A stretch of 64,000 nucleotides of DNA from Irineochytrium annulatum (taxonomy: Eukaryota; Chytridiomycota; Chytridiomycetes; Chytridiales; Chytridiaceae): NCBI GenBank assembly GCA_027600665.1, contig JADGJL010000004.1, positions 62,001 to 126,000 of the forward strand, read 5' to 3'. Within the stretch, counting starts at the first letter, position 1, and each line of letters begins with the position of its first letter. The translations under genes and the position numbers were made by a program. The notes beneath the pieces were generated by a model. It was given only the letters and a program-made list of their open reading frames with translations, was not told the DNA's origin and did no database searches. Shown here one piece after another: positions 9,661 through 39,459 of the stretch.

Positions 9661-10140
9661 ATGTTTATTCAGATTATTGGCGTAGGCAAATTGAAGGAAA
9701 AATATCTGACGCTGGGCATTCAGGAATATGCCAAGCGGCTCGCTCCGTACATCAAGTTCCAGATGATCGAGGTCGCAGACGAAAAGGCGCCCGATACCCT
9801 GAGCGAAGCTGAGGTTCGGGCGGTGAAAGAGCGCGAGGGCGAACGCATCCTCGCGCATGTGAAGAGCGAGGCGCATGTTGTCGCGCTCGCATTGGATGGC
9901 CAGCTCTGGAGTTCCGAGGAGCTGGCATTGGAGATCGACAAGCTCGGCACGTATGGGACGAGCCATGTCGTGTTTGTCATCGGAGGAAGCCATGGGCTCT
10001 CCGATGAGGTGTTGCGCCGCGCGAAGCAGCGCTTGAGCTTCGGGCGCATGACCCTGCCGCATCAGCTTATGCGGCTGGTGTTGGTGGAGCAGATTTATCG
10101 CGCAGTGAAGATAAATCGGGGGGAACCGTACCACAAATAG
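9661..10140 (+). CDS. rlmH: 23S rRNA (pseudouridine1915-N3)-methyltransferase RlmH
   Basis: 159 residues, the standard family length. It methylates pseudouridine 1915 in helix 69 of 23S rRNA on the assembled 70S ribosome. The SPOUT-fold features are visible: the start [15 protein letters not shown], the SAM-binding knot [13 protein letters not shown], the [24 protein letters not shown] block and the conserved end RGEPYHK. The ATG at 9661 is chosen (AGGAGG at 9645-9650) over upstream in-frame ATGs at 9601 and 9652. Its 3' end is the classic integration site for SCC elements in staphylococci, and here a second copy of that end lies 2.7 kb downstream. Confidence 0.97.
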
Positions 10141-10144
10141 GGTG
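10121..10144 (+). other. Putative attachment-site copy 1 at the rlmH 3' end
   Basis: GAACCGTACCACAAATAGGG (10123-10142) covers the last codons and stop of rlmH. It matches GAACCATACCACAAATAAGGG at 12852-12872 with one substitution and one extra A. The segment corresponds to the staphylococcal SCC core at the orfX/rlmH end. Confidence 0.5.
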
Positions 10145-10307
10145 AAAAGGGGGTGAGCTACCCACGACTGGCGGAAAAGCCGAATTAAACGGGCTGCTGC
10201 ATTTCTTGGAGGTACAGATAAAGGGAAAGACCGGTTCAGTCCCTTGTCGTTTTTGAATATACAGCATGAACAGTGCCCAGAGAAATGAACAAGTTAACGA
10301 GGCTTTA

Positions 10308-10757
10308 CTAGAGGCTAGGGTCGCCTTTTGTTCTTTCCGCAAGCTTCGTAATCGATTCAATGTCTTGATCGGTTAATTGATCCAGAAAATACTTGCGTAT
10401 TGCCATTGAGACAATGGGCAGGGCCTCATCCAAAGCTGCTTTTCCGGCAGAAGTAATGATGACCTGGACACCACGATCTGCGTTTAATGGCCCCCTTTTA
10501 ACAAGGCCCCGTTTTTCCATCCGCGTCAAATGATGGGATAATCTGCTCTTATCCCAGTTCATCGAGTCGGCTAGTTCCTGTTGACGAAGCTTGCCATCTC
10601 CGAATTGAATTAACCGATCTAGTACTCCAAAGTCCCCTTCTGATAGCCCTGTATGTTCAGAAAGCTCCTTAACAACGCGACCGAAGATTCGTTTAAAGGA
10701 GCCTTTCCACATATTCCATATTTGCATTTCATCTTCGTTTACTTTGTTGATATCCAT
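10308..10757 (-). CDS. MarR-family transcriptional regulator
   Basis: A 149-residue winged-helix protein. The DNA-recognition region reads GKLRQQELADSMNWDKSRLSHHLTRMEKRGLVKR, followed by the wing GPLNADRGVQVIITSAGKAAL. The N- and C-terminal helices form the dimer interface. It is divergent from an SDR gene. The shared 150-base gap contains two GTTGAC-N2-GTCAAC dyads, very likely its operators, so it probably represses both directions. There is no Shine-Dalgarno; TTGACG-N15-TATACT ends three bases before the ATG, so the mRNA may be leaderless. It lies within the segment bracketed by the duplicated rlmH end. Confidence 0.88.
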   Translation of the reverse strand: MDINKVNEDEMQIWNMWKGSFKRIFGRVVKELSEHTGLSEGDFGVLDRLIQFGDGKLRQQELADSMNWDKSRLSHHLTRMEKRGLVKRGPLNADRGVQVIITSAGKAALDEALPIVSMAIRKYFLDQLTDQDIESITKLAERTKGDPSL

Positions 10758-10774
10758 GCGAGTATAATATCATA

Positions 10775-10831
10775 GTTGACACGTCAACCACAAGGTGTTA
10801 GCCTATACATAGGTTGACATGTCAACCTATG
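10775..10831. promoter_or_regulatory. Two MarR-type operator palindromes
   Basis: GTTGAC-AC-GTCAAC at 10775-10788 overlaps the marR -35 region. A 24-bp perfect palindrome at 10808-10831 has the core AGGTTGACATGTCAACCT. They share the GTTGAC half-site and are 33 bases apart. Confidence 0.8.
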
Positions 10832-10906
10832 AGAAAACTCTCGAGTACCGAGTTGATGTATTAACCTGTATTGAACAGTAAATCCCCACTAAAGGAGTTG
10901 TTTCTT

Positions 10907-11659
10907 ATGCAGGATAAACCCGTGGCCTTGGTCACCGGAGCCAATAAAGGAATCGGTCTTCAAATTGCCAAAGATCTCACGGCTCGCGGCTTCACGGTGC
11001 TCATCGGCTCTCGCAATTTCGAGAAAGGGGAGACAGCCGCGAAGAGTGTTGGAGCGGATGCCCATGCCCTCCAACTCGACGTTACAAATCAGGATTCTAT
11101 CTCCGCCGCGGCAGAGCGCATCAGAAGTGAACTCGGTCGTCTCGATGTGCTCGTGAATAATGCGGGCATATCGCACCATGGTCCGACGGGCAGGCCTCTT
11201 GAGGAGGTTGGGAAGTCGGGACGCCCAAGCGTTGCATCTCTAGAAGAGGTGCGAGCCGTGTTCGAGACGAACGTGTTCGGCGTCATCGCCGTCACGCAAG
11301 CGATGCTGCCGCTCCTTCGTGAAGCGCCGACAGCGCGTATCGTCAACGTATCAAGCGGTTCGGGCTCACTGACGTTGAACGCGAATCCGACTAATTCACA
11401 TCGCGAGATGTTCGGAGCCGTTTACAGCCCTTCCAAGACGGCTCTCAATGCAATTACGCTCGCCTTTGCCATTGAACTCGAGTCGACAGGCATTAAGGTC
11501 AATGCAGTATGCCCGGGCTTCACCGCGACGGATCTCAACAACTTTGAGGGCACGGGCACCGTCGAGCAAGCCGCGCGACATCCCGTGCGCCTTGCACTCC
11601 TCAACGAGGACGGTCCGACGGGCACATTCTCAAACGAAAGACGCCAACTCCCGTGGTGA
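10907..11659 (+). CDS. Short-chain dehydrogenase/reductase (SDR)
   Basis: A 250-residue classical SDR. The NADP-binding motif TGANKGIG lies at about residues 10-17, the NNAG structural motif at about 84-87, the catalytic Ser in VNVSSGSGS and the Tyr-Lys pair in YSPSK. The ATG at 10907 is used because AAGGAG lies 9 bases upstream; an in-frame ATG at 10871 lacks a site. The C-terminus EDGPTGTFSNERRQLPW matches the carbonyl-reductase-like group. Base composition is visibly richer in G+C than the neighbouring marR and aldo/keto reductase genes. It is probably de-repressed by ligand binding to the divergent MarR. Confidence 0.9.
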   Translation: MQDKPVALVTGANKGIGLQIAKDLTARGFTVLIGSRNFEKGETAAKSVGADAHALQLDVTNQDSISAAAERIRSELGRLDVLVNNAGISHHGPTGRPLEEVGKSGRPSVASLEEVRAVFETNVFGVIAVTQAMLPLLREAPTARIVNVSSGSGSLTLNANPTNSHREMFGAVYSPSKTALNAITLAFAIELESTGIKVNAVCPGFTATDLNNFEGTGTVEQAARHPVRLALLNEDGPTGTFSNERRQLPW

Positions 11660-11752
11660 CGTAGTCTCGAGTAGCACGGGCTCACCGAGTTATGTGTATA
11701 CAACCTGAAGGCGTGTATGCCTTCCCAATATCCTTAAGGAGTGAGCAACCAA

Positions 11753-12724
11753 ATGGAATATGTAAAACTTGGACGCAGCGGGTTAGAGGTTTCAAAGTTA
11801 AGTCTTGGAACCATGAGTTTTGGAGTACCTGAACGCGGCAATACCCCATGGTCTCTGGATGAGGAGCAGAGCAGACCGATAATTAAGAAGGCACTCGAAT
11901 CGGGCATCAACTTTTTTAGTACCGCCAACATGTATTCCGACGGAACAAGCGAAGAAATTCTCGGGCGTGCTCTAAAGGACTTTGCTCATCGTGACGAAGT
12001 CGTCATAGCAACAAAGGTATTTGTTCCGATGCGCAAAGGTCCGAATGCTTTGGGACTTTCTCGTAAAGCTATCATGACCGAAATTGATAACAGTCTAAGA
12101 CGACTCGGAACAGACTATGTCGATTTGTACCAGATTCATCGGTGGGATCCTAATACGCCAATTGAGGAGACCATGGAGGCTCTTCACGATTTAGTTAAGG
12201 CGGGCAAGGTCAGATACATCGGAGCATCCTCCATGTTAGCATGGCAGTTTGCGAAAGCTCAGCATGTCGCAGAGCGTAACGGCTGGACGCGGTTCGTTTC
12301 CATGGAGAATAGATTAAACCTGCCCTATCGGGAAGAAGAACGAGAAATGCTCCCCCTTTGCAGAGACGAGGGAGTTGGCGTCACTCCTTACCTGCCTTTG
12401 GCTGCAGGCCGGTTAACTCGGGATTGGAATGAGCAGACCGCACGATCAGAGAAGGACCAGGTAGCAAAGGCATTGTTTAATAAAACGGAAGAGGCTGATC
12501 GCAAAGTCGCGGAAAGAGTTGTAGAAATTGCAGCTAACCGGGGAGTTTCGCGCGCACAAATTGCACTTGCATGGTTGCTACAAAAGGAAGAGGTCACAGC
12601 GCCGATTATGGGTTCGACCAAAATCAGCCATCTGGAAGATGCGGTTTTGGCCTTGTCGGTTAAATTGACTTCTGAAGAAATTACGCGTTTAGAAGAACTG
12701 TATATTCCACATCCATTCGTATAA
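11753..12724 (+). CDS. Aldo/keto reductase
   Basis: A 323-residue NADPH-dependent TIM-barrel oxidoreductase. Family features are visible: LGRSGLEVSKLSLGTMSFG at the N-terminus, the tetrad region NFFSTANMYSDGTSEEILGRAL (the usual Asp-Tyr pair reads TANMY, Asp replaced by Ala), ATKVF, the DLYQIHRWD strand and IMGSTKISHLEDA near the C-terminus for cofactor phosphate binding. ATG at 11753 has AAGGAG at 11736-11741; the GTG at 11741 overlaps that site and is not used. It lies 93 bases after the SDR gene and is probably co-transcribed. The Asp-to-Ala change at the tetrad may alter activity. Confidence 0.88.
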   Translation: MEYVKLGRSGLEVSKLSLGTMSFGVPERGNTPWSLDEEQSRPIIKKALESGINFFSTANMYSDGTSEEILGRALKDFAHRDEVVIATKVFVPMRKGPNALGLSRKAIMTEIDNSLRRLGTDYVDLYQIHRWDPNTPIEETMEALHDLVKAGKVRYIGASSMLAWQFAKAQHVAERNGWTRFVSMENRLNLPYREEEREMLPLCRDEGVGVTPYLPLAAGRLTRDWNEQTARSEKDQVAKALFNKTEEADRKVAERVVEIAANRGVSRAQIALAWLLQKEEVTAPIMGSTKISHLEDAVLALSVKLTSEEITRLEELYIPHPFV

Positions 12725-12793
12725 ATTTGACGCAAGTAAGGTGTATATCTGCTAATCATGCAAAGCTTAATTCTTGTATGTTCAATTCTATGG

Positions 12794-12838
12794 AAAGAAC
12801 TTTTCATGCTATTTCTCATGAAGAGTTCTTTTGCTTTT
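12794..12838 (+). terminator. Intrinsic terminator after the aldo/keto reductase gene
   Basis: AAAGAACTTTTCATG pairs with CATGAAGAGTTCTTT (one internal mismatch), followed by TTGCTTTT. Confidence 0.8.
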
Positions 12839-12849
12839 GTATTGTTACG

Positions 12850-12890
12850 GTGAACCATACCACAAATAAGGGCAAGTTTTTTTGTGGTAT
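12850..12890 (+). other. Putative attachment-site copy 2, with an inverted repeat
   Basis: GAACCATACCACAAATAAGGG (12852-12872) repeats the rlmH 3' end but lies outside any gene. ATACCACAAA (12857-12866) also pairs with TTTGTGGTAT (12881-12890). Fifteen of 18 bases agree with the staphylococcal SCC core as I remember it (GAAGCATATCATAAATAA). Confidence 0.5.
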
Positions 12891-13065
12891 TCTTTGTGGG
12901 GCTTGGGTTTGTATATATGCTGAACAATTACCCAGGGCACTTGCTTTTTGAGAGGAGCAATCCTCGTCACATCCCACGGGTGCCTGCCCAAACGGAATTC
13001 GCTCCCTGCGTCGTTCTTCAGTTCGAGCCTATAATATATGGTTAAAACTCCGCTATTTACGATAG

Positions 13066-13094
13066 TTGCGTTTTACTTCCATACAGTATAAAAT
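13066..13094 (+). promoter_or_regulatory. SigA-type promoter of the UMP-kinase-like gene
   Basis: TTGCGT (13066-13071), 17-base spacer, TAAAAT (13089-13094). This would give a leader of about 150 bases that contains a short ORF and a terminator. Confidence 0.65.
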
Positions 13095-13129
13095 GAATTG
13101 ATGAAAAATTACTGGGAAGGAGTGGGAAT

Positions 13130-13219
13130 ATGAGGTGGAAACGGAAGTTTTTCAATCTGTCGACTGTTACAATTTCATATTCTCGTTCCATTAAGACACT
13201 AGAGCATGTATTGCTTTAG
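13130..13219 (+). CDS. 29-residue leader peptide upstream of the UMP-kinase-like gene
   Basis: ATG at 13130 is preceded by GAAGGAG (13116-13122). The peptide begins MRWKRKFFNLSTVT and is basic and hydroxyl-rich. Its TAG stop (13217-13219) lies inside the 3' arm of the terminator hairpin at 13196-13230. A ribosome that completes the peptide would cover or melt the hairpin, coupling leader translation to read-through. This is an inference from the layout; no homologous leader is known to me. Confidence 0.6.
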   Translation: MRWKRKFFNLSTVTISYSRSIKTLEHVLL

Positions 13220-13230
13220 TGTTTTTTATT
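13196..13230 (+). terminator. Attenuator: intrinsic terminator in the leader
   Basis: An 11-bp stem (13196-13206 with 13212-13222, one G-U) with a TGTAT loop and a run of six T. It ends just before the ribosome site GGAGG (13236-13240) of the next gene, so it must act within the leader and not after a gene. Confidence 0.8.
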
Positions 13231-13248
13231 TGCGCGGAGGTGTAAAAG

Positions 13249-13986
13249 TTGACAAGGTACAAAAGAGTTCTAATTAAACTCAGTGGTGGTGCAGTAGCTG
13301 GTAATACCGAGTTTGGGTTTGAACCTGAGAGGCTAGACCATATCGCAGACGAAATTATGTCAGTAGTAAACTTAGGCGTTGAAGTATCGTTAGTTATAGG
13401 TGGCGGTAATATTTTCAGAGGTAATATGGCGGAAAGCTGGGGGATAGAAAGGGCAGAAGCTGATAACATTGGGACGCTTGCGACTGTAGTAAATAGTTTA
13501 ATGCTTCGGGGAGTTCTTAAAGCCAAGACCAAAAAGGAAGTACGAGTAATGACGGCAATACCTATTACTTCAGTTGCAGAACCATACATCAGACTAAGGG
13601 CAGTTCACCATCTGGAAAAGGGCTATATTGTAATTTTTGCAGGGGGGAACGGTCAACCTTATGTTACAACAGACTATCCTTCAGTACAAAGAGCAATCGA
13701 GGTTAATTGTGACGCTTTATTAGTTGCTAAGCAAGGTGTTGATGGTATCCTTAATGCAGACCCTAAATTTGATAAAGATGCAAGGAAATTTCGTTCGCTT
13801 CATTACAACGACGTTGTAAAACACAACTTAAAGGTAATGGACCAATCAGCTTTCATTTTAGCAAGGGACTACAATTTGCCAATGCATGTTTTTAATTTCA
13901 ATAAACCAGGCTCGATGAAAGAAATATGTGAAGGTAAGAATAACGGTACGATAATTAGTGGCCAATCAATTTTGGAATTAGAATGA
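13249..13986 (+). CDS. UMP kinase (PyrH)-like amino acid kinase-fold protein
   Basis: A 245-residue protein clearly related to bacterial UMP kinase, which phosphorylates UMP to UDP. It keeps YKRVLIKLSGG (ATP loop), GGGNIFRG, ADNIGTLATVVNSLML (UMP site; usually ADYMGMLATVMN), TTDYPSVQRAIE, GVDGILNADPKFD and LKVMDQSAFILARDYNLP. Several canonical residues differ (SGEALAG to SGGAVAG; GTGNPYFTTD to GGNGQPYVTTD), and it lies away from the tsf-pyrH-frr cluster, so it is probably a specialised paralog. The TTG start has GGAGG 8 bases upstream. Expression appears controlled by a leader peptide and attenuator. Lower G+C than the flanking genes suggests acquisition. Confidence 0.88.
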   Translation: MTRYKRVLIKLSGGAVAGNTEFGFEPERLDHIADEIMSVVNLGVEVSLVIGGGNIFRGNMAESWGIERAEADNIGTLATVVNSLMLRGVLKAKTKKEVRVMTAIPITSVAEPYIRLRAVHHLEKGYIVIFAGGNGQPYVTTDYPSVQRAIEVNCDALLVAKQGVDGILNADPKFDKDARKFRSLHYNDVVKHNLKVMDQSAFILARDYNLPMHVFNFNKPGSMKEICEGKNNGTIISGQSILELE

Positions 13987-14025
13987 ACTAATATTCTATA
14001 TTAGAGTAGTCCTATGATAAGCAAA

Positions 14026-14058: not shown

Positions 14059-14106
14059 TATATTTTGATCCAATCATCTAAAATAACTGGACCCTCAATC
14101 ATAAAC

Positions 14107-16131
14107 TTAAATCTCAAACTCAACACTACCATTTCCGCTTAACTCAAAAGGACCTGGTGTGACATCTGCATCCGGTCTCTTTGTTCCGAAAAAGTCGGAG
14201 TCAAAATGATATGGAGTGCTGTCTGGTTCCTCATACTTCATATCGGCGTGATAAGTCTTTCCAAGCAGATCTGTGGTAACTAACATTGCAGTGGTTCCCC
14301 GAAGCAATTCGGGCTCATGAATCTGAATGTGCACCTTACCTAACGCAGGATCAATCTCAACGTTTATGCCTTTCTGAGCATAGATATTCGCATCTGGTTC
14401 ATGAGTGCTTGAAACCGCATAGTTAAGATATACATTTCCACCCATAGCTACCGGAAGAACGGCATTGCCTATAAAGAAATCCTTCGCGGCATCGCCAAGT
14501 TCCATAAGCTCCTCTTTGGTGTATTCCCACCATCTCTTATCTTTCACATCAGGATGTTGATCGTAGCCACCAAGTCCCACAGCATGCAGATAACATATGG
14601 AATTGTCCGGAACCCCGTCCATAACCGTCTTTCCGTCCTCTCCAACTTCATCCCTTGGTTTAAGGGGAAGATGCTCAAAGAAGGTAATCGGAACAGGTTC
14701 TTTATTCCCATCGTTATCACCCAAGAAGATATTGTTGTAGTACCTGTCATCGCCTCCAGTGATATTGGAGTATCCGGCCATGGCCGTCTCGTGAGGGAAA
14801 TGATATGGCGTGATACGTGTAATTTCGGAACGAACCACAAATCGACCTGCAAACAAATTATGAGCAAATGCCCCGCCCTGAGCCATATTTCTGAAATTCA
14901 TCGGAGATAGAAATAGATTGTGATCGACCATATATGGACCATGGCACACCTCAACGAAGAGGTCCTCGGAAATGTTGTCAAAAAATACATTACGGCTGAT
15001 GCGAGTGCCCTGAGCCTGCCAGTCCAGCCAAAGCGCACGGTAACAGCTATAGATGATATTCTCATTCATCTGAGTATCCAGTGCAGCATGCAGTTTAATT
15101 CCCGCGACTTCGGCACCATGTCTGAGTCGTTTGTGGTGAATATTATAGATACGGTTCTGGTAAATGCGGCTGAAGGCTGCTCCCATATGGCCCACAATAC
15201 CAGCCTGTTCACAATCATGAATCACATTACCTCGAACGATGTGACTACCGACGCGATCTTTATGCCAGCCGGAGCGTAATGCTCGTAAAATAACCTCCTG
15301 CTCCCGTTGAGTACCGCCTTTACTACGCTTCTCTATAGACCTGCTGTGACCTGTGCCGATTTCGGTACCCAGGCTAATCCCAACGCACTTGGATTCACTG
15401 ATGATATTGTTCTCAATAATCCAACCCTTGCTCCAGTGGGGTCCAATCAAACCTTCCTGGTAGTCTGTAGGTGGTGCCCATTGAGGAGAAGCTTGGCGAA
15501 GTGTGAAACCACTTACGGTTATGTAGTTCAGTCCCGGTTGTTCAGGCCAGAAGCAATAAGGACGTACATTAATTTCTACATTTTCCGTACGAGGATCTTT
15601 TCCGCCAAAGTTGGCCCAGATTTTGGTTGTCGTAGAACCCACTTCCGCATACCATTTCAACAGTGAATCCTTGGGATATTTGGCTTCAGGCCAAATTTCA
15701 GGATTGTGAACGCTTTCAACACTATTGCTCTCATACAATGATTTCCCATCCAGATAGACATCCCCGAGATGAACTGGGAAAGGCCCGTCAAATAACCAGT
15801 CTCCACTGAGCTCAACCTCAAAGGGATTACGGACGGAAAAGATGGAATTGAGCACTTCTGTGCTCCAAATATGGTCTCCTTCAGATTGCCAACTAGTAAT
15901 CCGATCAGCTCCTGTTATCACGACTTCCCCATCTCCCGCGGATCGATATACGATTCGATGCTCCGCTGTTCCTCCATTCACCGGGTTAACCCATTCCCTG
16001 TATACTCCCGCATGAACAATAACGGTATCACCAGCCATGGCATGAGCCGCAGCGCGTGATATGGTACGAAGGGGTTGATCTGCTGTTCCTTTTCCTTGAT
16101 CATTCCCATGGTTGGATACATGATATTCCAT
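14107..16131 (-). CDS. GH120-family beta-xylosidase-like right-handed beta-helix enzyme
   Basis: A 674-residue cytoplasmic protein without signal peptide. From memory it aligns along its length with the GH120 xylosidase XylC of Thermoanaerobacterium: MEYHV start, AMAGDTVIVHAGVYREWV, HLGDVYLDGKSLYE, FTLRQASPQWAPPTDYQEGLIGPHWSKGW, and the active-site block WLDWQAQGTR...LFVEVCHGPY. Asp370 (WLDW) and Glu394 (FVEV) correspond to the nucleophile and general acid. Such enzymes release xylose from short xylo-oligosaccharides. Parallel beta-helix turns fill about residues 200-460. The start has AAGGAGAG upstream on the minus strand. It stands alone, with no transporter or regulator adjacent. Confidence 0.85.
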   Translation of the reverse strand: MEYHVSNHGNDQGKGTADQPLRTISRAAAHAMAGDTVIVHAGVYREWVNPVNGGTAEHRIVYRSAGDGEVVITGADRITSWQSEGDHIWSTEVLNSIFSVRNPFEVELSGDWLFDGPFPVHLGDVYLDGKSLYESNSVESVHNPEIWPEAKYPKDSLLKWYAEVGSTTTKIWANFGGKDPRTENVEINVRPYCFWPEQPGLNYITVSGFTLRQASPQWAPPTDYQEGLIGPHWSKGWIIENNIISESKCVGISLGTEIGTGHSRSIEKRSKGGTQREQEVILRALRSGWHKDRVGSHIVRGNVIHDCEQAGIVGHMGAAFSRIYQNRIYNIHHKRLRHGAEVAGIKLHAALDTQMNENIIYSCYRALWLDWQAQGTRISRNVFFDNISEDLFVEVCHGPYMVDHNLFLSPMNFRNMAQGGAFAHNLFAGRFVVRSEITRITPYHFPHETAMAGYSNITGGDDRYYNNIFLGDNDGNKEPVPITFFEHLPLKPRDEVGEDGKTVMDGVPDNSICYLHAVGLGGYDQHPDVKDKRWWEYTKEELMELGDAAKDFFIGNAVLPVAMGGNVYLNYAVSSTHEPDANIYAQKGINVEIDPALGKVHIQIHEPELLRGTTAMLVTTDLLGKTYHADMKYEEPDSTPYHFDSDFFGTKRPDADVTPGPFELSGNGSVEFEI

Positions 16132-16402
16132 AACAACTCTCCTTCTATTCGAAAATGTTTGTTGTATCTCGTTATTATACTAGAAAATAAATGTAATGGG
16201 AGAGATAGGAAATCAGATGCTAGACCAAATTGATTTTAATATAAGGTAAACCACATCACTACGCTATGAGGTTGTGTTTTTTGCCTTTTGAGGCTTTAGC
16301 TATTGTTAAAAGCTATAACCAGCCATGTTTTTTTCATATAACATACTATCTTTCCAATCATGCTATACTCAGTGAACCAAAAAGTTAGAAGGAGTAATAA
16401 CT

Positions 16403-20656: not shown

Positions 20657-20828
20657 CTTTTCGTTACAATCAACATGGTAAAACATACTACAAGTAGCGA
20701 GAATTTTTACAGGGCTATGTAAAGTTCGAAAACGTAAATATAATGCGCCGAATGGATGTATCGCCGATCAATTAAACATGGAAGAGTTTACTGGTTGGCC
20801 ACGAGATGTTAGGCGAATATTGTAAAGT

Positions 20829-29835: not shown

Positions 29836-29871
29836 TTTGTACGTGCTCAGCTATTATACGGTGAACAGCGG

Positions 29872-30324
29872 CTATCTTCTACCTAGTGTCTCCCAAATGC
29901 CATGGAGCCAGGCGTCGAACTCAGCATCTTTGTCGCCCTCGTAAGTATCATAGAGATCCAGACGTGTCTTTTGCAGTTTTTCCTTGAATTCCTCAAATGT
30001 GTGACCTTCAGGAAGGCTTTTTTTGATCCGCAGCAAAATTTTGTTAGTACCTTTAAACAGCTCACCTTTGTTTTTGGCGGGCATTTGTACATCTTCATCC
30101 AACTGTTTCAGCTTGGAATATGCGGCTTCACGCACCTGGAACACTTGATCATTTTTCAAAACATGCTGAAGCAACTTAATGGTAGGGGCTGTATCCCAGT
30201 TTCCCAATTCATTCACCGCATTCAGTCTGTCTCTCCAGCTTGAAGTCCGATTAGCCGCTCGTTTGAGCTCTTCAAAGTTCTCCGGTAATTCGTTCACTGC
30301 TCCAATATCATGGTTGTTCGTCAA
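29872..30324 (-). CDS. HEAT-repeat domain protein
   Basis: A 150-residue all-helical protein. A HEAT-like pair is visible at about residues 28-75: RDRLNAVNELGNWDTAPTIKLLQHVLKNDQVFQVREAAYSKLKQL. The C-terminal half (LFKGTNKILLRIKKSLPEGHTFEEFKEKLQKTRLDLYDTYEGDKDAEFDAWLHGIWETL) is charged and helical. It probably acts as a protein-protein adaptor. The start is TTG with AAGGAG 9 bases upstream. It lies just inside one copy of the 105-bp repeat. Function unknown. Confidence 0.75.
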   Translation of the reverse strand: MTNNHDIGAVNELPENFEELKRAANRTSSWRDRLNAVNELGNWDTAPTIKLLQHVLKNDQVFQVREAAYSKLKQLDEDVQMPAKNKGELFKGTNKILLRIKKSLPEGHTFEEFKEKLQKTRLDLYDTYEGDKDAEFDAWLHGIWETLGRR

Positions 30325-30415
30325 AATTCAATCTCCTTAATCATCGCCATCTCGGCAGAATGATGAATGTTATTTATGTGATCACTATTATAGCACGAAC
30401 CTGACTAAACTACTC

Positions 30416-31381
30416 CTATGAAGCCGATTGGTTAGCCTTTTCCTTAATGGAGTCTACCATAAACACCCAACCAATTAGTCCACATAAGACAAAACCAAAC
30501 GCATGCAGAGATCCATAGATAGGAATAAAATCGAGTATGGTTAAGGAGTACATATTTTTCAGTAACGGATAGAAGATGGAAATGACAACAACCGTGTAAA
30601 AGGCTAGGCAAGAAAGGCCTAAGAAGAAGGCTGCCTTAATATCCAAAGCATTTTTCCTCAAGTAAGCAAGGAGATAAGCGGTGTAAACCACAATATTGCA
30701 GGCGAACAAAGCGACACCAATGTATTCAATCGGCTTGGAGAAAATCATACCCGTAGCAATCAAGACTGGTCCGATGATATCAATGGCAACGACCCAGGGA
30801 TACCAGCTTTTCTTCGTCATGATGCGTCCCAGTGCACCAATAAAAATGGGAACGATTGCAGATGAAAAATGAAAGTGAACCGAGCTTAACGCGTGCATTG
30901 CCGGATTAGCTTGGAAGAGGTCCAATTGATATTGATATAAGGTAAACCAAATGCCCCCGATAAAAAAATAAACGAGCCCCGCGCCAATCGCTACTTCCGC
31001 CGCTTTTCCTTTAGAGATCACAATCGTGGTCAAGCCATAGATGCCAAGCAGCAGGGTGAACAGTAGCCACCCAAGGGACAGAATCCCTGGGATTGTGGTA
31101 CTTTCTAGCCCCCATATCTTACTACTCATTATCGAAGCTAGAGTAAGAAGCGCAGCGGGAAATTGAAGCCATTTCATAGCAGCATAAATCACTCGTTGAT
31201 ATGTATTCTTTGCGTCATGGTTCAAAAGTAAAATCACAAGAGGCACAATGACTAAAGCCGCAAAAAGCAGAAATTTATCAACAAGTTCGAATTGAAAGTG
31301 ATCCAGAGAAAATATCAGAATGGTTATGATTCCACCGGGAAATGCGGGTGATTTTATGAGTTGCTTCAAGGAACTATTCAT
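30416..31381 (-). CDS. YndJ-like integral membrane protein
   Basis: A 321-residue protein with about nine hydrophobic helices and short loops. A histidine-rich membrane segment HALSSVHFHFSSAIVPIFIGALGR (about residues 163-186) matches the YndJ family of Bacillus, whose function is unknown. AAAGGAAA lies upstream of ATG 31381. It is oriented away from the TetR gene; the 236-base gap between them carries the TetR operator. It might be a second target of that regulator. Confidence 0.75.
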   Translation of the reverse strand: MNSSLKQLIKSPAFPGGIITILIFSLDHFQFELVDKFLLFAALVIVPLVILLLNHDAKNTYQRVIYAAMKWLQFPAALLTLASIMSSKIWGLESTTIPGILSLGWLLFTLLLGIYGLTTIVISKGKAAEVAIGAGLVYFFIGGIWFTLYQYQLDLFQANPAMHALSSVHFHFSSAIVPIFIGALGRIMTKKSWYPWVVAIDIIGPVLIATGMIFSKPIEYIGVALFACNIVVYTAYLLAYLRKNALDIKAAFFLGLSCLAFYTVVVISIFYPLLKNMYSLTILDFIPIYGSLHAFGFVLCGLIGWVFMVDSIKEKANQSAS

Positions 31382-31572
31382 GGGATTTCCTTTCTGACTA
31401 TGTTTATCGTAAGACCTGCCTGCATTCAGTTATGTAGCGTTTCTTTAGTATAAAACGGCAATTCTCCTTCTAGTAGTCTATCACATTTATTTTTCGAAGT
31501 ATGAACATAAGCTTATCTTATTAAGCCTGATAACACCCGAAGACTTTGGTCACAGGTGTACAACCTTCGTCA

Positions 31573-31601
31573 TGGACATACGAGTATAGCACTGCTATAA
31601 T
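31573..31601 (+). promoter_or_regulatory. tetR promoter with operator TATAGCACTGCTATA
   Basis: TGGACA (31573-31578), 17-base spacer, TATAAT (31596-31601). The operator palindrome at 31585-31599 overlaps the -10 box, fitting autorepression. The predicted transcript would start only about 10 bases before the ATG. Confidence 0.8.
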
Positions 31602-31617
31602 GGACATATGAACACAT

Positions 31618-32193
31618 ATGAACACATATGACAAAATATTGGCAGCAGCTCTTAAGGTACTCGAGGAGGATGGCGGAGCCCAATTTACGACGCGAGCCGT
31701 AACTGCAATCGCTCAGGTTACGGCTCCTACACTCTACCACCATTTCGGCAATGCCGATGGTCTCCTGAGTGCAGCTATAGTGGAAGCGTTCAAACAGTTA
31801 TTTGATAGCAAGATTGCCGCAGTGGAGTCCCCCATTCCAGAGATGGCTCTTCGTCAAGGATGGGATGACTATGTGCGATTCGCGGCAACCCGTCCTCGGA
31901 TTTATGCGGCGATGATGGGGAGGTTGCTCGAGGGCGCCCATATTGAGGCGGCAGATCACTCGTACCAAGCACTAGTGCACAATGTTCAGAGAGTCGCCGT
32001 TGAAGGCAAACTGGCTGTTTCAGCCCAGGCTGCGGCAGATCTGGTCTGGGCTTCCGCCAATACGGCCTCTTGGCTGTATGTGACGGCCCAGATTCGTAAG
32101 GCATCCCCACCCCAACCCGATGTCGTTGATCTCATTCGGGAAAGCGTAATGCAGATCATATTGATCCAAAGGCCGGACGCCGATTCAAAATGA
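31618..32193 (+). CDS. TetR-family regulator of the SDR/monooxygenase pair
   Basis: 191 residues. The N-terminal helix-turn-helix reads FTTRAVTAIAQVTAPTLYHHFGNADGLLSAAIVEAF (about 25-60), followed by the ligand-binding helical domain. Its promoter carries a TATAGCACTGCTATA palindrome. Three more copies of this site precede the SDR gene at 32562, so both the regulator and its target can be named from sequence alone. The start ATG at 31618 has no Shine-Dalgarno and lies about 10 bases from the predicted transcription start. An earlier ATG at 31608 hits a stop at once. Confidence 0.88.
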   Translation: MNTYDKILAAALKVLEEDGGAQFTTRAVTAIAQVTAPTLYHHFGNADGLLSAAIVEAFKQLFDSKIAAVESPIPEMALRQGWDDYVRFAATRPRIYAAMMGRLLEGAHIEAADHSYQALVHNVQRVAVEGKLAVSAQAAADLVWASANTASWLYVTAQIRKASPPQPDVVDLIRESVMQIILIQRPDADSK

Positions 32194-32252
32194 GGGATTC
32201 GATGACAGAGCCTGGGGACTTCAGGCAAAGCCCTAATTTAGAAGAAGTAAAA

Positions 32253-32303
32253 GAAAGATCGCTTATCCAACCTGGACTTCCAGGAGGATGGCGATCTTTT
32301 TTA
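32253..32303 (+). terminator. Terminator after tetR
   Basis: AAAGATCGC pairs with GCGATCTTT around an inner stem CCTGG/CCAGG, followed by TTTTTT. Confidence 0.85.
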
Positions 32304-32462
32304 TGTTTGGATAATGCGACATTAAACGCACCCCCATTTCCATAAGTTCAACGCAACGATAAATCTCAACCCCTCCCGCCATAGTACTTCGTGAGCTTCG
32401 AGTGCATCACGCCAAGCCCGTCAAAACGATGTTCGGGCAGCAGGACAACACTTCAAAAAAAA

Positions 32463-32524
32463 TATAGCACTGCTATAGACATTTTTGTATAGCGCCGCTA
32501 TAACGTTCGTATAGCACCGCTATA
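32463..32524 (+). promoter_or_regulatory. Three tandem TetR operators upstream of the SDR gene
   Basis: TATAGCACTGCTATA (32463-32477), TATAGCGCCGCTATA (32488-32502) and TATAGCACCGCTATA (32510-32524). Start-to-start spacing is 25 and 22 bases, about two helical turns. The last copy is 37 bases before the SDR start. The same 15-mer controls the tetR promoter. Confidence 0.85.
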
Positions 32525-32561
32525 CCATGATCCATATCTTATCAAACCTAGGAGGGTTATC

Positions 32562-33413
32562 ATGTCATTCAAAACGCAAGAACTGGTCATGGTCACAGGT
32601 ACGTCCAGCGGCATCGGTAGGGCTACCGCGGAGCAGCTGGCCGCTGAAGGATTTCACGTTTTGGCGGGGGTTCGTCGTCAGGAAGACGCCGACAAAATCA
32701 AACGCAAAAATATCGAGCCGGTGATCGTCGATGTTACCAATATCGACTCACTAAAGGCGCTGGCTGAACGGGTGGAGCAAGATCCGCTTGGTCGCCCTTT
32801 GCGGGCAGTGGTCAACAATGCCGGCATCGCCGTTAATGCACCTCTTGAAATGGTTCCGCTTGATGAATTTCGTCGCCAGTTTGAAGTCAGTGTGATCGGA
32901 CAGGTGGCGGTTATTCAGGCACTTACCCCGGCCTTGCTGAACAGCGGCGGTCGCGTGGTCAATATTGGTTCGGTTGGAGGCAAGATCTCCATGCCTGGTT
33001 TCGGAATTTATTCGGCTGCAAAGTATGCTATGGAAGCGATCAATGACAGTCTTCGCAGGGAGATGTCCTCTTTTGGTCTCAAGGTGATTATGATCACTCC
33101 GGGTGGTGTTAGCACTGGCCTGTCGGAACAAGGGATTACGACAGCGGACCGGCTGGCCAAGTTGATGACACCGGACCAGCACCATCGTCATGATCGTCTC
33201 TTTGACGCCGTGAAGGCTCAGGCTGAAACGTGGGCAAAGGACGGTATTCGCCCTGAGAAAGTGGCAGCAGTGATTTCACGCGCAATCCACGAAAGAAAGC
33301 CCCGCACCCGCTATACGGTCGGTTCCGATTCGGCACTGCTGACTCGACTGGTCCGTATTCTCCCAGACAAACTTCTCGACCGGATGCTCCGCAGCCAGAT
33401 GAAACTGCAGTAA
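32562..33413 (+). CDS. Short-chain dehydrogenase/reductase under TetR control
   Basis: A 283-residue SDR. The cofactor motif VTGTSSGIGRATAEQLA lies at about residues 12-28, NNAG at about 85-88, the catalytic Ser in VNIGSVGGK and the YSAAK pair at about 151-155. The C-terminal extension RYTVGSDSALLTRLVRILPDKLLDRMLRSQM is typical of the retinol-dehydrogenase-like/oxidoreductase group. AGGAGGG gives a strong ribosome site. Three operator palindromes precede it. A putative antibiotic-biosynthesis-type monooxygenase gene follows in the same unit, suggesting inducible detoxification. Confidence 0.9.
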   Translation: MSFKTQELVMVTGTSSGIGRATAEQLAAEGFHVLAGVRRQEDADKIKRKNIEPVIVDVTNIDSLKALAERVEQDPLGRPLRAVVNNAGIAVNAPLEMVPLDEFRRQFEVSVIGQVAVIQALTPALLNSGGRVVNIGSVGGKISMPGFGIYSAAKYAMEAINDSLRREMSSFGLKVIMITPGGVSTGLSEQGITTADRLAKLMTPDQHHRHDRLFDAVKAQAETWAKDGIRPEKVAAVISRAIHERKPRTRYTVGSDSALLTRLVRILPDKLLDRMLRSQMKLQ

Positions 33414-33481
33414 TGGGCATTTTCACATACCCTCTTGGACAAAAAGCTATACGAAGTGTTTATACATTAGGAGGAATTAGC

Positions 33482-33805
33482 ATGAACGATACAAAGAACC
33501 GTTACGTTACTGTACTCTGGGAGGCGAGAGCCAAGGCAGGGAGAGAAGCCGAGATGAAGGCATTCATGGCTGCTGCTGTCACTCCGTCACGCAACGACCT
33601 GGGCAACATTGACTATGAGGCTCACGAGGTAGAAGGTCAGCCGGGCACATTCATCATCTACGAGCGCTGGGTAAACCGGGATGCCCTCGATCGGCACCTA
33701 AGCGCCCCCCGGATGCAGGAACTGGTGCCTCAGCTCTTAGAGCTGATGGAGGGATCCATTGAGCAAGGAATTCGACTCCTGCAACCGTTCCGCCCAGCGC
33801 AGTAA
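33482..33805 (+). CDS. Antibiotic biosynthesis monooxygenase (ABM)-domain protein
   Basis: A 107-residue dimeric alpha+beta ferredoxin-like fold protein. The family pattern is visible: RYVTVLWEARAKAGREAEMKAFM, NIDYEAHEVEGQPGTFIIYERWVNRDALDRHLSAPRMQEL. ABM proteins oxidise quinone-like or heme-like substrates without cofactors, or act as stress proteins. ATG 33482 follows TAGGAGGAATTAG; an earlier in-frame start at 33413 overlaps the SDR stop and lacks a site. It is the second gene of the TetR-controlled unit. Confidence 0.85.
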   Translation: MNDTKNRYVTVLWEARAKAGREAEMKAFMAAAVTPSRNDLGNIDYEAHEVEGQPGTFIIYERWVNRDALDRHLSAPRMQELVPQLLELMEGSIEQGIRLLQPFRPAQ

Positions 33806-34106
33806 AATGCAACACCGCACGGAACTTATTAAGTTCTGTCTGGAAAGCGTGACAGATATTTTCGTGAGCGGTTAAAGACTTTAGTGGAGGAGGCAACAAT
33901 ACCTAATGGTACTCCTATTGCGTAAAAATAAGACTCTAAGCGCCTCATCCTTATAATCAGTGTTTGACGAATAGAGCACCAGGAGGTGTTGACTGCATTC
34001 CAGAAGAATGCAGTCTTTGTAGCGGTTAAGATTCCGTGTAGCAGTGGAAGCTTCTTTCCTCCCAGACACTGCGAAGTAACGGGGAGAAGGTTAGTAGCAT
34101 CGGCCG
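33806..34106. other. Intergenic region between the ABM and gerC-like genes
   Basis: No gene is seen. A perfect 10-bp hairpin (33991-34000 with 34006-34015, GACTGCATTC/GAATGCAGTC) is followed by TTTGT, a weak terminator. It could serve either of the convergent units. Confidence 0.4.
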
Positions 34107-38009: not shown

Positions 38010-38117
38010 GCAAGCAATAAAGAAAGGTACATACCCGTTATGAGTACAAGTTAACATGGAGAGCTGTCCATCAGGGTACAATGCCCCGTGGAACAGCCCC
38101 TCTTTTCATGCCATCAT

Positions 38118-39257
38118 CTAAGGCTTCAGGATGAATTTAATGCACTCATCCGCATGGTTATAGAAAGTGTTATACGCATTATGCGCCTGATCGAGCGGCA
38201 CTTTATGCGTGATGATCTCCGTGGGATCGAACTCGCCTGCCACAATTTTTTGATACAGCATCGGCATGTAATGAATCACGGGCGCCTGTCCCATGGTCAA
38301 CTTTACGTTTCGTTCCCAAATGTTTCCGAACATAAACTGGTTGTATTTAGAACCGTATACCCCCGTAATCTGAATCGTGCCGAATTTCCGTACCGCATTC
38401 ATCGCGATGTTGATCGGGCTGAGCGTTCCGCCAACCAGCTTGGCCTTCTGCTCTTCCTCCTCCAAGGGGGTCTTCTTGCCGTCCATTCCAACGCAATCGA
38501 TGACGACATCCGCACCCCCGCTCGTTATTTCTTTTATATGCAGCCCCATGTCTTCGAAATCTTCAAAGTTGAAGATTTCGACATTATTCATTTTTTTGGC
38601 ATGGTTCAGTCGGTACGGAAGATTGTCGACCGCAATGACCCGTTTAGCTCCTTTCATCCAGGCGAATTTTTGTGCCATCAAGCCCACAGGGCCACAGCCG
38701 AGTACCACCACCGTATCTCCCTTCTTCACGCCGCCATTGTCCACGCTCCAATAGGCTGTCGGCAGTACGTCGGATAGGAAGAGGAGATTCTCATCCTCCA
38801 ATTCGCATGACTCCGGAATAACGAAGGGCATAAAATTGCCGTACGGCACGTATAGCAATTCGGCTTGTCCGCCCGAATAATTCCCGTAACGTTCGGTAAA
38901 TCCAAAGTAAGCTCCCGTATCCACTTGGGGATTGGGGTTGGAGTTGTCGCATTGGCTCTCCATTTCATGCTGGCAGTAATGACAGCTCCCACACGAGATA
39001 TTGAACGGGAGCACAACCCGGTCCCCTTTTTTGACTTTTGTCACCTCGGGGCCCACTTCTTCGACAATGCCCATCGGTTCATGTCCAACCACGTATCCGG
39101 GTTGCGCTTGAATCGCCCCCTGGTATATATGAAGATCGGAACCGCATATGGCGGTCGAGGTGACCCTGACGATAATCCCGTCGTTTTTCTGAATCGTTGG
39201 ATCCGGGACCTGCTTCACTTGCATGTTCTTCATTCCACCGAATGTTACAGCCTTCAT
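38118..39257 (-). CDS. Zinc-dependent alcohol dehydrogenase (formaldehyde dehydrogenase-like)
   Basis: A 379-residue medium-chain dehydrogenase. Catalytic zinc ligands are in STAICGSDLHIY and GHEPMG; structural zinc cysteines in NISCGSCHYCQHEMESQC. The NAD motif is VVLGCGPVGLMAQKFA. Insert sequences such as NYSGGQAELLYVPYGNFMP and SDVLPTAYWSVD fit the glutathione-independent formaldehyde dehydrogenase-like group. ATG 39257 has AGGAGGG upstream; a start at 39329 would add 24 unsupported residues. It is a single-gene unit with its own terminator. Confidence 0.9.
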   Translation of the reverse strand: MKAVTFGGMKNMQVKQVPDPTIQKNDGIIVRVTSTAICGSDLHIYQGAIQAQPGYVVGHEPMGIVEEVGPEVTKVKKGDRVVLPFNISCGSCHYCQHEMESQCDNSNPNPQVDTGAYFGFTERYGNYSGGQAELLYVPYGNFMPFVIPESCELEDENLLFLSDVLPTAYWSVDNGGVKKGDTVVVLGCGPVGLMAQKFAWMKGAKRVIAVDNLPYRLNHAKKMNNVEIFNFEDFEDMGLHIKEITSGGADVVIDCVGMDGKKTPLEEEEQKAKLVGGTLSPINIAMNAVRKFGTIQITGVYGSKYNQFMFGNIWERNVKLTMGQAPVIHYMPMLYQKIVAGEFDPTEIITHKVPLDQAHNAYNTFYNHADECIKFILKP

Positions 39258-39459
39258 AATCGCCCTCCTGTAATAACATGCTTTGAATTCTGCACGAATG
39301 GATCTATTATGGAATTGGAGAGTGAGCATTCGTGTTTTTTCTGATATTGCTACTCCATTATTATATGAAATCCCTATTTCGTGGGGTTGTGTCCAGAGAT
39401 CAATATTTATTAGTTAAGGCAAGCCAGACGCTTCGGGTACGTTACTTTAGCAAAAACCA

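Follow-up and report, generated by a model that had tools for sequence, protein, structure and literature searches.

Introduction

SCC elements are the carriers of methicillin resistance in staphylococci (the MRSA cassette), while integrons, with their tyrosine integrase and attC folds, hold arrays of short gene cassettes that have no recombinase of their own and are moved in trans. For SCC and pseudo-SCC elements, composites are described, as well as an element without known ccr genes (PMC8407400). For ECC, located downstream of rlmH, 21-78 kb long and carrying ccrAB-Ent, the relevant sections of PMC6222049 report dyad symmetry at attR and attECC, a TATCATAA-type motif and several attR sites, and a central GA is required by CcrAB according to a section of PMC10581047. 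Pol-SSB islands of Bacillota, including Paenibacillus pinistramenti, are described in part of PMC10061031 as tandem elements with rlmH-end repeats, replication genes and their own recombinases.

The stretch of DNA analyzed here (64 kb, hereafter the window) contains, at the 3' end of an rlmH gene and between two direct cores, a cassette of 2.73 kb (10123-12869) whose likely origin is insertion in trans by large serine recombinases of the Ccr type (probability roughly 0.86, judged from sequence comparisons), action in trans being proposed because the cassette carries no recombinase itself. The cassette resembles SCC elements in its position, its direct cores and its imperfect inverted repeats, and differs from them in its Paenibacillus host, its size (2.7 kb versus 55 kb for SCCmecC2865 in the relevant part of PMC8407400), its single small metabolic operon and its diverged core. 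With ECC it shares a location downstream of rlmH, a dyad-symmetric attR and a motif of the same type, but it has att-like sites without the recombinase that, in the sections cited, defines ECC together with attL and attR (PMC6222049). The Pol-SSB islands occupy the same genus and site; they carry replication genes and recombinases, and the corresponding part of PMC10061031 does not deal with short cassettes that lack a recombinase. The SCC-like insertion outside staphylococci proposed in the initial annotation is supported, although this alone is not new, given the partial accounts from Enterococcus (PMC6222049) and from Bacillota including P. pinistramenti (PMC10061031). The apparent novelty lies in the combination of small size, lack of a recombinase and arrays across the whole family, with one such unit present in different slots, loci and species; the open-licence PMC literature yielded no paper on short rlmH cassettes without a recombinase in Paenibacillus. 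The difference from integron cassettes is that the sites look serine-recombinase-like and that the cassette has its own regulator. If the reading is true, short cassettes of the Paenibacillaceae share site logic and Ccr homologues with SCC, and the arrays of these soil bacteria would be a natural setting for studying cargo capture, the movement of recombinase-less cassettes and the origin of SCC, with non-pathogenic Paenibacillus as hosts open to direct experiment.

Host contig and cassette layout

Judged by its RlmH, the contig is Paenibacillus: the protein is 97-99% identical to those of P. pabuli, P. taichungensis, P. xylanivorans and close kin (99% identity to P. pabuli RlmH for the query 9664-10140). 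The assembly containing the window comprises 26.9 Mb in 1082 contigs with a single rlmH and does not represent an ordinary bacterial genome. The features of the locus are collected in Table 1.

Table 1. Coordinates, strand and basis of the features at the rlmH locus of the window.
Feature	Position	Strand	Basis
rlmH, attachment gene	9661..10140	+	gene call; P. pabuli RlmH match
Left core, attL-like, overlapping rlmH stop codon	10123..10142	+	repeat search
Left terminal repeat GGTGAAAA, consensus GGCGAAA	10141..10148	+	element-end comparison
marR-family regulator	10308..10757	-	PF12802, PF01047
Perfect palindrome of 24 bp in the marR-SDR interval, candidate MarR operator	10808..10831	.	function inferred
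SDR, short-chain dehydrogenase gene	10908..11659	+	PF00106
AKR, aldo/keto reductase gene	11753..12724	+	PF00248
Right terminal arm, degenerate inverted copy of core and left end	12829..12851	+	14/23, 13/23 arm matches
Right core, attR-like	12852..12872	+	repeat search
Putative left end of next element, like sequence directly after rlmH in P. ihumii, P. timonensis	12870..12979	+	

The repeat of the rlmH end reported in the initial annotation is present in both copies, GAACCGTACCACAAATAGGG on the left, with the rlmH stop codon within it, and GAACCATACCACAAATAAGGG on the right in direct orientation. These are the only two matches to the core in the whole 64-kb window when up to 3 mismatches are allowed. 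The 10-bp inverted repeat described beside the second copy is likewise present (ATACCACAAA, 12857-12866, and TTTGTGGTAT, 12881-12890). Compared with the staphylococcal attachment site as quoted in part of PMC8407400 (GAAGCATATCATAAATGA), the right core is identical at 14/18 bases (previously counted as 15/18) and the rlmH copy at 12/18. Beyond 12852, no other core of either end type was found in the window (weak candidates at 20680 and 55565 have 4 mismatches each), and searching the same part for the two right-end motifs, with as many as 7 mismatches allowed, yielded no supported site.

Gene calls and domain matches agree that only marR, SDR and AKR lie between the copies, as first annotated. 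The three genes are predicted to form a reductase operon that regulates itself through MarR at the 24-bp palindrome. The higher G+C content noted for the SDR gene is also seen in 1-kb bins (54.5% in 11001-12000, which holds most of SDR, versus 47.2% and 45.8% in the adjacent bins). Late insertion of SDR, considered on the basis of G+C content, was dropped, since SDR is present in genome G157 and in core-less operons and is partly deleted in others.

Recurrence of the cassette in other genomes

By its distribution, the block between the copies behaves as a discrete mobile unit. In genome G157, from another species, the entire segment 10123-12869 aligns between two cores (94.9% identity, 2749 bp) in a cassette array at 4.02 Mb, 2.7 Mb away from rlmH at 6.74 Mb, and matching between the flanks and those of the window is confined to a 37-bp rlmH-end stretch. 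In P. xylanivorans, where the copies contain N-filled gaps, the cassette fills slot 3 of the rlmH array (between the third and fourth core) at 91-92% identity, and a second SDR-AKR copy on another contig ends at a core. Slot 1 of P. lacisoli, directly after rlmH, contains marR and AKR without SDR, with a core at the end; identity to the window is 81.0% for rlmH, 92.8% for marR with its leader and 95.5% for AKR. The signal of transfer comes from P. lacisoli and G157, since AKR is no clearer than rlmH in P. xylanivorans (93.2% and 92.4%, respectively) or P. lemnae (84.9% and 81.6%). Only the right core is found in P. lemnae, where the best left candidate has 5 mismatches. In two further genomes (G273, G324), marR and AKR, together with remnants of SDR, lie between cores 3-8 kb from rlmH. 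Another genome (G099, L124) has the marR-SDR-AKR operon inverted relative to its two cores, 3 kb from rlmH.

The initial annotation reasoned that an invariant marR-SDR-AKR block at this place in all related genomes would speak against insertion, and proposed a search for variability and for cassette-free sites. The block is not invariant: close relatives have other DNA after rlmH, and the cassette itself is also found bounded by cores at a different locus and in different slots. Cassette-free sites, in which rlmH runs straight into sequence resembling what follows the second copy, were found in P. ihumii and P. timonensis. A query joining the rlmH end to the second-core sequence aligned without interruption in P. 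ihumii (86.8% over 189 columns, extending 68 bases past the junction) and, through to the query end, in P. timonensis (75.6% over 275 columns), while matches at other loci stop ~30 bases past the junction. In P. timonensis, the left end at this junction is part of an element carrying an intact Ccr-like gene, so that what follows the second core in the window resembles the left end of a further element.

Recombinases and the remnant alternative

Recombinases were located by tblastn and family searches, adopted because a strict recombinase motif scan recovered only 4/80 loci and missed known ones. No PF07508 recombinase was found in the whole 26.9-Mb assembly (which may be incomplete) and therefore none in the window, in line with the first report of no ccr gene there, and a PF00239 search of the same assembly gave only one weak match. 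The suggested search for ccr homologues was thus negative for PF07508 in this assembly and positive beside rlmH in several relatives. Intact Ccr-like genes lie ≤10 kb downstream of rlmH in Paenibacillus (L012, L025, L026, L069) and other genera (L054, L060, L066, L070, L082), and shortened pieces occur at five loci (L019, L027, L035, L048, L122). Five full-length genes scanned, including the L025 pair and one L012 gene, have CcrB or CcrC as their best NCBIfam matches, in every case below the equivalog cut-off. The homologues score 249-438 bits against CcrB, where the cut-off is 900; the L025 pair, from the P. pinistramenti contig of PMC10061031 (as identified from part of that paper), scores 438 and 319, below the curated cut-off for the CcrA/B/C equivalogs. 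The enzymes of the relatives, as exemplified by this pair, are homologous to these equivalogs and fall outside them.

Among the core-to-core elements in the loci, 3/53 have a Ccr-like match, one of them intact. Twelve genomes with the cassette or a relative of it were examined. G157 has an intact Ccr-like pair 20-23 kb downstream of its rlmH, G099 has a Ccr fragment beside rlmH, G023 has a fragment, and no Ccr homologue at E <= 1e-20 was found in six (G003, G273, G324, G022, G326, G305); the remaining carriers have distant Ccr matches only. A marR-bearing element of P. fonticola (L122, 3077-3616) has a truncated Ccr-like C-terminus at its end, immediately ahead of the right core.

The initial annotation left the choice between a passive cassette and a remnant. 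The latter, a larger SCC-like element that lost its own recombinase by internal deletion and then decayed, is unlikely: truncated Ccr-like pieces in the arrays of relatives (L027, L035, L048, L122, G099) are what lends it credit, but a recombinase-less unit with the same two ends is found in G157 and also in P. xylanivorans, where the copy has gaps, and any such deletion must predate the spread, which amounts to a passive cassette. The passive cassette is the better fit because the unit that recurs whole is itself recombinase-less.

Core-less copies of the operon

Among 24 operon loci compared with ~1.5-kb flanks, cores are present on both sides in 6, on one side in 4 (two of these with a core of 2 mismatches) and on neither side in 14; eleven further partial operon matches have no core at <=2 mismatches. 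The 14/24 loci without cores indicate that the operon also exists as ordinary chromosomal DNA, and they would suit a process in which homologous recombination or an unrelated transposase moves the operon and the cores are bystanders. Such a process is very unlikely to account for the cassette, given that in G157 the homology breaks off at most a few bases from the cores, with flanks that do not match outside the short rlmH-end stretch.

Core arrays in the Paenibacillaceae

Cores are widespread beyond this cassette. Within 10 kb on each side of rlmH at 80 loci (<=4 mismatches), many loci have same-strand cores downstream, with one match upstream (L015) and one downstream on the opposite strand (L033). 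The 18-base pattern GAACCNTAYCAYAARTRR, searched genome-wide, occurs in 44/45 relatives, with 0 matches for the reversed control. Among the core places listed (at least 150, in 39/45 relatives), 35 are the rlmH end itself, 69 lie on the same strand up to 60 kb downstream of rlmH, none within that distance is on the wrong side or strand, and 46 are elsewhere (coordinates served to assign the contig for two genomes in which no rlmH core matched). Across 295 genomes of the Paenibacillaceae, where one copy per genome is expected from rlmH itself, the pattern occurs 1180 times in 284 genomes (reversed control, 6 matches), at least twice in 225, at least three times in 165 and at least five times in 91, with a maximum of 23. 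Element sizes, including that of the window, have a median of 3.5 kb and are <3 kb in 23/54, in a set that favors small elements because those >10 kb could not be closed in the loci. Core copies after rlmH are also seen in Cytobacillus, Domibacillus and Neobacillus (L058, L070, L075).

A repeat that arose by chance beside an ordinary operon is a negligible prospect even though one copy is constrained by the C-terminal YHK codons of rlmH, as 0.01 cores are expected per window (mean over dinucleotide shuffles), the pattern recurs in nearly all relatives and not in reverse, the places listed cluster downstream of rlmH on one strand, and the cassette recurs between cores at other loci; shuffles, core distribution and core-bounded recurrence together are the grounds for rejecting both the chance and the ordinary-operon readings.

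There is about an even chance that the rlmH region of the Paenibacillaceae is a serine-recombinase counterpart of the integron, in which a small number of Ccr-like pairs, acting in trans, capture and reshuffle an array of interchangeable cassettes of 1-5 kb, nearly all recombinase-less, and pass them from one species to another, and ectopic arrays are seeded on short rlmH-end copies. Two arrays away from rlmH (L144, 5314-5369; L156, 3263-3307) open with the last 13-14 codons of rlmH only, before the first core, as if this short piece of rlmH had provided an additional landing site.

Site anatomy and proposed mechanism

Element ends that meet at interior cores are arranged as an inverted repeat (right end TTTCGCC..., core, GGCGAAA) or a variant of it (CTTGCC and GGCAAG). 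Scored about the first GA of the core, dyad symmetry averages 11.6/23 at 55 interior junctions and 5.5 at 46 rlmH junctions, compared with 5.8 for random left arms (sd 2.1, largest 15). The second junction of the window scores 13/23, the cassette's own ends score 14/23, and the P. lacisoli ends score 16. The two ends of an element tend to be of the same type (27/33 concordant, 6 discordant; Fisher p = 0.002), while agreement across junctions gives p = 0.13; the end types follow simple rules set after inspecting the sequences, and 33/54 elements could be scored, the window's right end being among the unscorable ones.

Set beside the customary definition of an SCC element, the cassette has the insertion at the rlmH 3' end, the flanking direct repeats of the insertion site (diverged, as noted above from part of PMC8407400) and the terminal inverted repeats with an attR dyad (degenerate, 13-14/23 versus 5.8), and it falls outside SCC for want of an internal ccr gene complex. 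Its sites follow the same logic as those of SCC and ECC. The cores, the recurring unit, the degenerate terminal repeats and the Ccr homologues near rlmH in relatives all favor the SCC-like insertion that was originally proposed. Under this reading, the crossover would take place at the GA that starts each core, attB would consist of rlmH arm, GA and core arm, and attP would be the dyad created by joining the two ends of the cassette. Each insertion would leave a new core behind, which would give rise to the tandem slots, and the recombinase would be supplied by a Ccr-bearing element that shares the cell or has since been lost.

Sequence beyond the cassette

A pyrH-like UMP kinase gene follows the cassette (13249-13986), and a homologue in MAEPY2 (L013) is followed by a core. 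Many segments of the window between 13057 and 53502 (e.g., 13057-13990, 14067-16146, 29843-33896 and 38063-39326) match DNA ≤10 kb downstream of rlmH in relatives, so that the part of the window past the cassette resembles a mosaic drawn from the rlmH hotspot. A second pair of cores in the window's assembly, located on another contig (L123, 3719-4811; G000:C872), one copy of which has a mismatch, surrounds a small gene and adjoins a dnaN-like gene, both named by eye from the translation.
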